This document shows, piece by piece, positions 15,888 through 50,434 of a stretch of 50,434 nucleotides of DNA (position 1 is its first letter; each line of letters starts with the position of its first letter). A model generated the notes under the pieces. It did not search any database. It had not been told where the DNA came from and saw nothing but the letters and a program-made list of their open reading frames with translations. The stretch is taken from NCBI GenBank assembly GCA_001657395.1, contig LYSY01000010.1, forward strand, positions 184,208-234,641. The letters are read 5' to 3'. The translations under genes were made by a program, and so were the position numbers. The stretch comes from Rhodospirillales bacterium BBD 1991-14. Its GTDB lineage: Bacteria > Pseudomonadota > Alphaproteobacteria > Kiloniellales > Kiloniellaceae.

Positions 15888-15940
15888 TTCGGAGGCCCGA
15901 GGCCGGCGGTTCGGGGGGACCGCCGGCCTCAGCATCCGAA
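15888..15940 (+). other. Large intercistronic stem-loop between nrdA and nrdB
   Basis: GAGGCCGGCGGT (15899-15910) pairs perfectly with ACCGCCGGCCTC (15919-15930) across an 8-nt loop, and outer arms TTCGGA/TCCGAA (15888-15893/15935-15940) extend the stem. No T-run follows, so it is unlikely to terminate. It lies 28 nt before the nrdB start, and an mRNA-stability or processing role that sets the nrdA:nrdB ratio is plausible. Confidence 0.75.
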
Positions 15941-44142: not shown

Positions 44143-44496
44143 ATGAAGAACTCAGAGAACCTCGGCCCCTGCCCCATCTGCGGCCGCGCGATGATCGAGG
44201 GGCCCAGCGTCGACCGGCACCATTGGGTGCCGCGCAAGGAGGGCGGTGTCGAGGCAGCCTTTCTGCATGTGGTCTGCCACCGGATGATCCACCGGCTGTT
44301 CGATGAAAAGGCGCTGGCGGCGGACTTCACCGACCCCGCCGCCCTGCGCGACCATCCGGACATCAGGCGGTTCATCGCCTGGGTGCGCCGCCAGCCGGCG
44401 GACTACGTCGACTGGCCGAAGAGCCCGCGCGGACGCAGGCGCGGCTCGGGGCGCGGCTCAGGTCGCAGCTCTTCAGGGCGCCGCCCGGCACGCTGA
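44143..44496 (+). CDS. HNH-type zinc protein with Arg/Ser/Gly-rich tail
   Basis: The first ~55 residues form a compact HNH-like module: CPIC (Cys10, Cys13), VDRHHWVPRKEGG (His26, His27), then VVCHRMIHRLF (Cys45, His46, His50). The four zinc-ligand candidates and the catalytic His fit an HNH fold, but the usual Asn is not obvious, so nuclease activity is unsure. The C-terminal 25 residues are Arg/Ser/Gly-rich (SPRGRRRGSGRGSGRSSSGR) and should bind nucleic acid. At 117 residues it is a free-standing module. No restriction or anti-phage partner is adjacent. Confidence 0.75.
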   Translation: MKNSENLGPCPICGRAMIEGPSVDRHHWVPRKEGGVEAAFLHVVCHRMIHRLFDEKALAADFTDPAALRDHPDIRRFIAWVRRQPADYVDWPKSPRGRRRGSGRGSGRSSSGRRPAR

Positions 44497-44517
44497 CCGG
44501 AGTGGCCGTCCGGACGC

Positions 44518-44555
44518 AAAAAATGGCCCGGTGCCGGGAGTGATCGGCACCGGGC
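44518..44555 (-). terminator. Intrinsic terminator on the minus strand (10-bp stem, T6)
   Basis: On the minus strand GCCCGGTGCC (44555-44546) pairs perfectly with GGCACCGGGC (44535-44526), followed by CA and six T (44523-44518). On the plus strand there is no T-tail, so the element serves a minus-strand transcript, although no minus-strand protein gene lies upstream of it. Confidence 0.85.
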
Positions 44556-44683
44556 TATAGCTGCGGACATTGCTTCGGAAAGCCTCCGAAATGCCCGCTC
44601 CGGTCCAACTGGGCTAAGACCGGGTCTGCCGCTCGGAAGGCCAAGAGTTATGGTGGGGACCACCTCCCGAAGCGCGACAGATG
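44518..44683 (-). ncRNA. Candidate FNR-controlled small RNA (~165 nt)
   Basis: A transcript starting near 44683 and ending at the T6 terminator would contain, in order, GGTGG/CCACC (44664-44652), GACCGG/CCGGTC arms at 44618-44623 and 44600-44605 (12-nt loop), TTCGGA/TCCGAA arms at 44585-44590 and 44574-44579, then the terminator hairpin. No convincing ORF lies within. A -10-like TATAGG and a CRP/FNR box sit at the right distances upstream. This layout matches that of an independent trans-acting sRNA such as enterobacterial FnrS, which is made without oxygen. It is a prediction from structure and spacing only. Confidence 0.55.
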
Positions 44684-44689
44684 CGCCAC

Positions 44690-44730
44690 CCTATAGCCCT
44701 GCCGAGTGCCGCTGCCTTGACGCAGATCAA
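44690..44730 (-). promoter_or_regulatory. CRP/FNR-type box and -10 element of the candidate sRNA
   Basis: TTGACGCAGATCAA (44717-44730) matches the FNR/FixK consensus TTGAT-N4-ATCAA at 9 of 10 defined positions. On the minus strand TATAGG (44695-44690) is a -10-like hexamer. The implied start near 44683 puts the box centre at about -40.5, the class II activator position. The box could also act on glpK (start 44895), but the distance to it is large. Confidence 0.6.
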
Positions 44731-44894
44731 TTCATCAGAGGTCGCTTAAAGGCGCATTGAATCCCTCGGCTGGCGGGTCCTGCGAAGGCTTGATCTTCGC
44801 CCGCCGGGCCGACACCATGCGCGCGCAGCGGCGCCGGCTCAGCGGCGCTCTGCGGGACGAAAAAGAACAACACAGACTGGGGGGACGCGGCGCC

Positions 44895-46388
44895 ATGGCC
44901 GACGGCAACAGCATTCTGGCAATCGATCAGGGGACCACCAGCACCCGGGCCATTCTGTTCTCGCCCGAAGGGCGGATTCTGGGCCAGGCGCAGCAGGAAC
45001 TGCCCCAGCACTTTCCCCAGTCCGGCTGGGTCGAGCACGACGTGGAAGACATCTGGCGCGACACCCTGAAGGTCTGCGAGGGGGCCGTGGCCGATGCCGG
45101 AAAAACCATCGCCGACGTCGCCGCCATCGGCATTACCAACCAGCGCGAAACCACGGTGATCTGGGACCGTGAGACCGGCAAGGCGATCCACAAGGCGATC
45201 GTCTGGCAGGACCGCCGCACTGCCGGCCTCTGCCAGGACCTGCGGGCCGCCGGGCACGAAGACCTGTTCCGCCAGCGCACCGGGCTGCTGCTGGACCCCT
45301 ACTTCTCCGGCACCAAAATCGCCTGGCTGCTGGACAAGGAGCCGGGCACCCGCGCGCGGGCCGAACGGGGCGAGCTGGCGTTCGGCACCATCGACTGTTT
45401 CCTGCTGTGGCGCCTGACCGGCGGCCGTGTCCATGCCACCGATGCGACCAACGCGGCGCGCACCCTGATCTATGACATCAAGCGCCAGATCTGGGACAAG
45501 GACCTGCTGGAGCTCCTCAAGATCCCGGAGAGCCTGCTGCCCGAGGTGCGCGCCAGCGATGCCGACTTCGGCACCACCGAGGCCGGCCTGCTGGGCGCCG
45601 CCCTGCCTATCGGCGGGATCGCAGGCGATCAGCAGGCCGCAACCGTCGGCCAGGCCTGCTTCGAAACCGGCATGATGAAGTCGACCTACGGCACCGGCTG
45701 CTTCGCCCTCTTCAACACCGGGAAGAACCTGGTGCACTCCCAGAACCGTCTGCTGTCCACCATCGCCTACCGCCTGGGCGACGAAACCACCTATGCCCTG
45801 GAGGGCAGCATCTTCGTCGCCGGCGCCGCGGTGCAGTGGATGCGCGACGGCCTCGGCATCATCCAATCGGCGCAGGAAACCGAGGCTCTGGCCAAGCAGG
45901 CCGACACCCGCCAGCGGCTCTATCTCGTGCCCGCCTTCACCGGCCTCGGCGCGCCATACTGGGATGCGGAGGCGCGCGGCGCCGTCTTCGGCCTTACCCG
46001 CGCCAGTGGTCCGGCGGAAATCGTGCGCGCCGGGCTGGAGGCTGTCTGCTACCAGACCCGCGACCTCCTGGAGGCGATGCGTGCCGACGGCGCCGCCGGG
46101 CTGGAGGCGCTGCGCGTCGACGGCGGCATGGTGGCCAACGACTGGATGCTGCAGATGCTGGCCGACATTCTGGGCGTCGCCGTGGAACGGCCCAAGGTGG
46201 CGGAGACCACGGCCCTGGGGGCGGCCTGCCTGGCCGGTCTCAGCCGCGGCCTGCTGCCGGACGTGGAAGCCATCGCCGGCCAGTGGCAGTGCGACGCCCG
46301 TTTCGAACCCCAGATGGCCGAAGACGAGCGGGAGGAGCGTTATGCCGGCTGGCAGGACGCCGTGGCGCGGGTGCGCAGCGCCGGCTAG
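44895..46388 (+). CDS. glpK: Glycerol kinase
   Basis: The 497-residue enzyme phosphorylates glycerol to glycerol 3-phosphate with ATP. The FGGY-family signatures are present: [20 protein letters not shown] at the N-terminus, [35 protein letters not shown], and the second ATP-binding motif [20 protein letters not shown]. The length is exactly that of E. coli GlpK when ATG 44895 ([13 protein letters not shown]) is used; an in-frame ATG at 44757 would add 46 unrelated residues. GGGGGGA precedes the start. No glpF, glpD or glpR adjoins it, so the gene is separated from the usual regulon. Confidence 0.97.
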
Positions 46389-50035: not shown

Positions 50036-50344
50036 CCGCTGCACTACCGGGCCGCAAAGCTCCCTACCAGGGATGACGGCGGCGCTGCGCACCTATTCCA
50101 GACGCACTGAACGCGGGAGAACGGCCGGGTCCCGGGGGTGGCCGTGCGAGACCGTTCTGCGGCTTGGCCGCAGCCCGTGGCAACCCCGGCCCGTGGGGGC
50201 GGGCAGACCCGAAATTGTCACGCAGGCGGCGTTGTCAGCGCTCATGGGCTGTGGTCCCTTTGACGGCAAGAATGCAGGGACCGGCCCGGCGCCGTCGTCG
50301 TAACACTCAAAGGATGCCCGCCGAAAAAGGGCTCCGCCAGACGA
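50036..50344. other. G+C-rich intergenic region, no gene recognised
   Basis: No convincing ORF on either strand. A small hairpin CTGCGGC-TTG-GCCGCAG lies at 50157-50173, and the surrounding GGCC/GGGG blocks could fold further. I looked for riboswitch landmarks (B12 box, TPP, SAM, FMN) and found none. Confidence 0.35.
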
Positions 50345-50434
50345 CGAGACCGGGCCACGAGACCGGGCCACGAGACCGGGCCACGAGACCGGGCCACGAG
50401 ACCGGGCCACGAGACCGGGCCACGAGACCGGGCC
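50345..50434. repeat. 13-bp tandem array running off the right edge
   Basis: CGAGACCGGGCCA is repeated perfectly without spacers from 50345 to the last base, giving nearly seven copies in view. The total length is unknown. As 13 is not a multiple of 3, an ORF crossing it would change frame register each unit, which argues for a non-coding minisatellite. Confidence 0.95.

Follow-up and report, generated by a model that had tools for sequence, protein, structure and literature searches.

A Probable FNR-Activated Small RNA Gene Restricted to Pelagibius

Introduction

A stretch of 50,434 nucleotides (the window) from the alphaproteobacterium Rhodospirillales bacterium BBD 1991-14 carries, on the minus strand in front of the divergent glpK gene, a box of the FNR/FixK type followed by hairpins and a terminator, and the locus raises the question whether these elements form an independent gene for an oxygen-regulated small RNA (sRNA) or belong to the control of a neighbouring gene. 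The original prediction, made from the letters of the window, favoured the former and likened the arrangement to FnrS of the enterobacteria. It proposed that the stems be examined for compensatory changes and the interval compared with Rfam, and held that a box-to-terminator block without conservation in relatives would count against it.

Layout of the Locus

Along the minus strand the box TTGATCTGCGTCAA, the -10 element TATAGG, three hairpins and the terminator follow one another between an HNH gene and glpK (Table 1), and every element that had been claimed, including the T6 tail, was found in the sequence. The activator site had been placed at about -40.5, which is the distance from the centre of the box to the predicted start at 44683. 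The independent gene of about 165 nt that had been proposed agrees with a predicted length of 166 nt and with a box-to-terminator block that is kept as a unit in relatives (see below), the same start and end rule giving RNAs of 165–172 nt across the six homologues. The R1 covariance model (see below), which was built with this sequence included, matched 44517–44680 at 181 bits. As had been stated, no protein gene that would explain the terminator was seen on the minus strand in the list of open reading frames. A block resembling the promoter-like element of glpK was present in four of five aligned loci, the fifth (L002) being aligned in the opposite orientation; glpK appears to have its own separate promoter-like element and the box need not serve it.

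Table 1. Features predicted at the locus (positions in the window)
Feature	Position	Strand	Basis or remark
FNR/FixK-type box TTGATCTGCGTCAA, palindromic core TTGA-N6-TCAA	44717..44730	-	Sequence; class II position
-10 element TATAGG	44690..44695	-	Spacer of 21 nt from box
Predicted small RNA, ~166 nt	44518..44683	-	Start placed from the -10 element; end is the T-run
Hairpin 1: variable outer stem, GGAGG/CCUUCC inner stem, conserved C-rich loop GUCCCCACCAUAACUCUU	44626..44680	-	
Hairpin 2: stem CCGGUC/GACCGG, loop around GCCCAGU	44600..44623	-	
Hairpin 3: least conserved stem, outer part broken in some genomes	44563..44597	-	
Intrinsic terminator stem-loop, loop GAUCACUCCC	44526..44555	-	11 pairs, 10 of them G-C
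Terminator T6 tail	44518..44523	-	T-run on minus strand only
glpK, glycerol kinase, divergent neighbour	44895..46388	+	NCBIfam TIGR01311, 695 bits (cut-off 590), scored on a longer ORF containing glpK
HlpB-like HNH protein gene, convergent neighbour	44143..44496	+	NF058586, 58 bits, below cut-off 130
glpK promoter-like element TTGATC-N17-CACCAT, outside the RNA gene	44790..44818	+	Read by eye

Both ends of the window are repetitive, with a 90-base tandem repeat (4.5 copies, 93% match) at 5–406 and a 13-base tandem repeat, ACGAGACCGGGCC, in seven perfect copies at 50344–50434, reaching the end of the window, which is also the end of the contig.

Occurrence in Pelagibius and Beyond

A DNA search of 58 genomes recovered the block in this genome and four others, and a covariance model built on those five (R1) found a sixth copy at 115 bits in G004, a genome outside the model set. 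Among the 23 genomes of the family, this one included, there were seven matches at E <= 0.001: full copies of the RNA are carried by G000 (this genome), G002, G003, G004, G006 and G007, and the seventh match is a remnant in G005. The block, the conservation of which had been made a test of the original prediction, is kept in six of the eight Pelagibius genomes. At the level of the order 8 of 61 genomes gave a match, the additional one being a terminator-like match in G048 (29.5 bits) that was rejected as a homologue together with G002:C61 (34 bits), both aligning well mainly at the terminator. In the class the one match among 385 genomes was this genome itself, the search having used stricter filters with seven candidates scored per listed genome, such that distant homologues could be missed. 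The loop pattern of hairpin 1 occurs at six places in a contig collection of 84,980 species, which may omit records near this genome, and four of these are Pelagibius records, including P. litoralis and P. marinus. Places in Synechococcus spongiarum (nothing from the covariance model up to E 0.1) and in an Actinomycetota bin (12.7 bits) were unsupported, and a plasmid search gave no match. No convincing homologue was found outside Pelagibius among the genomes of the family, order and class or in the 84,980-species contig collection.

Neither the RNA nor a GlpK match was found in G001, such that the absence there may be an assembly gap. In G005 (G005:C260; L012, L090) a box one base shorter abuts the terminator upstream of glpK, with no body between them; this remnant seems to be a natural deletion of the RNA body, and with the body lost the RNA would be dispensable in that genome.

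The Box-to-Terminator Block as an Independent Unit

Identity of the box to that of this genome is 100% in G006 and G002, 93% in G003, 79% in G007 and 86% in G004, while for the body the figures are 84, 83, 89, 63 and 63%, respectively, and for the terminator 78–86%. The spacer after the box (52–61%), the stretch between the -10 element and the first stem (46–56%) and the flanks (49–61% over 150 bp upstream and 100 bp downstream) may be set against a baseline of 44–51% for random sequence of the same composition. It is the box, body and terminator that are conserved, identity in the spacer and on either side of the block exceeding that of random sequence slightly if at all. The next called gene beyond the terminator is convergent in all six homologues, which means that the RNA is no mRNA leader of a downstream gene.

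The original prediction described the gene as lying upstream of glpK. This holds here, where the box is 178 bp 5′ of GlpK, and the distance is 171–196 bp in four other genomes, which is what would be seen if the box were an operator of glpK and the remainder a chance or repeat-derived array of hairpins. As a relation, however, the position is incidental: in G003 the HNH gene stands between the RNA and glpK and the box is 740 bp from GlpK. The block there nonetheless keeps its box, spacing, body and terminator whole, the box having stayed with the RNA. In addition the spacing between box and RNA is nearly fixed, and no such box was found upstream of GlpK in any of the 13 other family genomes with a GlpK match (1.5 kb searched, ~0.4 kb for G011), a GlpK match being missing in 3 of the 23 family genomes. 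An operator of glpK with hairpins attached by chance is a very improbable account, and the locus is better described as a non-coding unit that is independent, structured and conserved and carries its own terminator.

Folding and Compensatory Changes

The minus strand folds more stably than expected from its composition, 171 nt giving -86.6 kcal/mol, whereas 200 dinucleotide shuffles average -63.8 (z -5.4) and none was as stable; the plus strand folds less markedly (z -2.6, with 1 of 200 shuffles equally stable). The compensatory changes proposed as a check are present, pairing being kept through two-sided changes at 14 base pairs in a model-fitted alignment of six sequences. In that alignment, which leans towards the structure, 91.9% of pair cells are standard pairs compared with 29–48% for slid structures; five of the six sequences were used to build the model. 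The covariation score was 0.290, whereas slid structures scored 0.077–0.117 and 500 shuffles averaged 0.179, none being as high; likewise the paired share and the two-sided counts were reached by none of 500 shuffles, and the number of pair types was reached by 153 of 500. A MAFFT alignment, which is unfitted to structure, gave 51 predicted pairs of which 12 have two-sided changes. The covariation terms from RNAalifold are small (-1.4 and -0.27 kcal/mol, the latter for the MAFFT alignment).

Pairing is well kept in hairpin 1 (92.9 and 93.3% of cells), hairpin 2 (98.3%, with two-sided changes in three pairs) and the terminator (98.6%, also with two-sided changes in three pairs), hairpin 3 being the weakest with 72–92% over three helices. 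The long invariant runs are the loops of hairpins 1 and 2 and the terminator. In hairpin 1, GGTGGTCCCCACCA is identical in all six genomes, with AUAA absent from G007 and G004, and the T-run of the terminator is six or seven long in every homologue.

This pattern also bears on whether the body encodes a small protein or a dual-function mRNA. All six homologues do have one frame that is open across the body, an occurrence that is not rare at this G+C, but inspection by eye found no in-frame start codon with a ribosome-binding site, and in this genome the frame (ORF 44403–44663) passes straight through the terminator. Moreover the loop core of hairpin 1 is identical everywhere, third positions included, and the stems vary with compensation, all of which leaves a coding function scarcely credible. 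The non-coding RNA could alternatively bind a protein in place of mRNAs, for example as a sponge for CsrA/RsmA-type proteins through GGA motifs, and both GGAGG and UUGGA motifs do occur in or near the hairpins. Against this, most of the invariant letters lie in the C-rich loops and GGAGG is within a paired stem, and protein sequestration appears an improbable role.

Promoter and Regulator

TTGAY-N4-RTCAA is retained in all six homologues. In the five other than this genome the box is at -41.5 with a 22-nt spacer, compared with -40.5 and 21 nt here, all relative to predicted starts. The -10 elements of these five are TAGCTT (twice), TAGATT, TAGGAT and TAAGAT, such that TATAGG at 21 nt is peculiar to this genome among the six. 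A simple sigma-70 scan detected no promoter at the RNA gene, as expected of an activator-dependent promoter that has no -35 element. An FNR-type box near -41.5 of an independent promoter, taking the starts as predicted, is the arrangement of FNR-activated anaerobic sRNAs.

The genome holds 21 TTGAYNNNNRTCAA sites compared with two for a reversed control pattern. By simple gene calling and a hand count, 11 of the sites fall between genes, 4 reach across the end of a gene and 6 are internal to predicted genes. Boxes are found upstream of hemA (658 bits, cut-off 339), moaA (371 bits, cut-off 284), hsp20 and a gene for a BchE-like anaerobic cyclase (829 bits, cut-off 481), in the last case 61 bp 5′ of the called start (L080; G000:C15:789500-794500), with two boxes between divergent genes for an FtrB-like regulator (335 bits, cut-off 211) and a NarK-like transporter (242 bits, below the cut-off of 312). 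At a hemerythrin gene the box overlaps the called start, a cation-efflux gene adjoins a box but points away from it, and for several proteins beside boxes no family was found.

A candidate for the regulator is an FnrL-like protein (L028) with CSACSIRNLTIC close to its N terminus, the cysteines being taken to play the role that they have in FNR. Its best NCBIfam match is FnrL at 182 bits, which is below the cut-off of 300, and the same cysteine spacing is seen in proteins from G002, G004 and G007. The cluster and the best match together point to an FNR-type oxygen sensor in this genome. The TTGA-N6-TCAA motif is common to several regulators of the CRP/FNR family, and there are 12–21 HTH_Crp_2 matches per Pelagibius genome; with these numbers, and with L028 below the FnrL cut-off, another CRP/FNR protein could be the activator. 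The sRNA would then be real but answer to nitric oxide, nitrate or another signal through a NO-sensing regulator of the Dnr/NnrR type, FixK under FixLJ or an FtrB-like protein, for the last of which the two boxes upstream of the FtrB-like regulator gene may be cited. The FNR-like cysteine cluster of the FnrL-like protein and the presence of hemA, moaA and the bchE-like gene in the box set speak for FnrL in preference to these, and control by a different family member is considered possible but rather unlikely.

Hfq is encoded in all eight Pelagibius genomes, and the presence of its gene together with T6 or T7 tails on the RNA would be in keeping with an Hfq-dependent sRNA.

Candidate Targets

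The search for targets covered 2003 predicted gene starts drawn from 2.4 Mb of this genome and the window. By raw duplex energy over these starts the three loops were no better than 30 shuffles each, and most shuffles of the terminator loop scored better than the loop itself. The top match by raw energy, upstream of an nrdB-like gene (named by eye), was rejected as the site is itself a GC-rich hairpin: at 15898–15931 in the window, GGCCGGCGG...CCGCCGGCC lies directly 5′ of this gene, which resembles that for the small subunit of class I ribonucleotide reductase. With scores corrected for accessibility, hairpins 1 and 2 were indistinguishable from shuffles. Of 20 shuffles of the terminator loop, one did as well at each of ranks 1 and 5, four did so at rank 20 and seven at rank 100, a result not taken as significant.

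A cytochrome c gene ranked first for hairpin 1 and fifth for the terminator loop after this correction. Its site in this genome, at -84 to -76, is not retained at that place in relatives; in G006, G003 and G002 the hairpin-1 site is near -31 to -24 of the gene, and G007 and G004, the two distant genomes, have weak sites only. For the site in the three relatives, 3 of 500 mononucleotide and 15 of 500 dinucleotide loop shuffles were as good, in a test that followed one gene across related sequences and left out this genome, the source of the choice of gene. Four sets of control genes, taken from these three relatives, gave lower sums. The cytochrome c mRNA is a candidate target for which this evidence is suggestive. 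In G000, G006, G003 and G002 (L227–L230) a GGGGAYC site 5′ of the cytochrome c gene can pair with the hairpin-1 loop. About 2 kb from a cytochrome c gene in this genome (L149; G000:C1:840001-860000), the minus strand encodes a cytochrome P460-like protein in which NPCNPCAA forms a long repeat.

The terminator loop resembles the 3′ end of 16S rRNA, GGAUCACCUCC. The motif GGGAGTGA is not enriched near starts, ranking 58th of 168 anagrams, and TGGATCACCTCCTTT, which we take to be the 16S rRNA 3′ end, was found once per genome in all four genomes searched. The likeness is compatible with a blocker of ribosome-binding sites and provides no evidence for one. On a broader proposal the RNA would be a translational brake for the switch to anoxia, with the terminator loop GAUCACUCCC mimicking the 16S 3′ end GGAUCACCUCC and, together with the hairpin-1 loop, occupying many mRNAs for aerobic respiration at or close to their ribosome-binding sites, cytochrome c being the first candidate; this is held to be unlikely.

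Comparison With Known sRNAs

No Rfam family matches the interval at its gathering score. The best match, anti-hemB RNA (RF02837), was rejected at 27.8 bits vs a gathering score of 49.5; two hairpins align, much of the match being a hairpin followed by a T-run. The weak matches to sX13, atoC and others, all under their gathering scores, were likewise rejected. The FnrS covariance model found nothing up to E 10 on 44450–44800, nor up to E 5 on 44500–44720. The parallel drawn with FnrS in the original prediction stands as an analogy of promoter layout, and the RNA is no FnrS homologue. A full-text literature search for Pelagibius and sRNA together returned no paper, and within Rfam and that literature the RNA is undescribed, in agreement with the remark that the sequence was unfamiliar in alphaproteobacteria.

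The fnrS gene of Neisseria gonorrhoeae, the meningococcal counterpart of which is AniS, offers a second comparison. The available text of one source describes it as an anaerobic FNR-dependent sRNA gene with a class II FNR site, a -10 element and its own terminator, the RNA being proposed as a functional equivalent of FnrS (PMC3032703). It has a 5′ stem-loop and an unstructured region, whereas the Pelagibius RNA has three hairpins, and the bacterial class differs. FnrS of E. coli and other enterobacteria has a class II FNR site at -41.5 according to the same text, which reports that FNR-controlled sRNAs of enterobacteria and Neisseria are without sequence homology (PMC3032703). The Pelagibius RNA is like FnrS in being an independent RNA of small size with a predicted class II FNR site, but differs in having three hairpins before the terminator and no sequence match. 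In the alphaproteobacterium Rhodobacter sphaeroides, RSs0019 and RSs2461 have FnrL ChIP-seq sites in their putative promoters, as far as the available text states (PMC4263372); these FnrL-bound sRNAs are likened to the present RNA by description, with no relation claimed. PcrZ of R. sphaeroides is reported in the accessible part of its source to be a low-oxygen sRNA dependent on PrrA and FnrL, with the control by FnrL thought to be possibly indirect (PMC8139620). The Pelagibius RNA has a class II box and here too the likeness is by description, not by sequence.

Discussion

The locus is very probably a real and new sRNA gene, restricted to Pelagibius and activated by FNR, with no homology to FnrS. 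The whole explanation, in which an independent Pelagibius sRNA gene is activated by FnrL at low oxygen and its product acts in trans with Hfq on mRNAs, is considered likely with good confidence. As oxygen falls, an FnrL-type [4Fe-4S] regulator would bind the box at -40.5 or -41.5 and, as layout and regulator suggest, bring about class II activation of transcription. A structured RNA of ~165–170 nt would then be made and end at its own terminator, in keeping with the conserved sequence and structure, and would most likely act in trans with Hfq. The C-rich loops of hairpin 1, UCCCCACC, and the terminator loop CAYUCCC may pair with G-rich sites near mRNA starts, and such pairing would block the translation of mRNAs that are unneeded without oxygen.

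For the alphaproteobacteria, the comparison so far consists, in the available text of the two sources, of FnrL-bound candidates and PcrZ alone (PMC4263372, PMC8139620). A compact and conserved gene with its box in the class II position, as predicted here in Pelagibius, would strengthen the view that unrelated sRNAs are repeatedly brought under the control of FNR.
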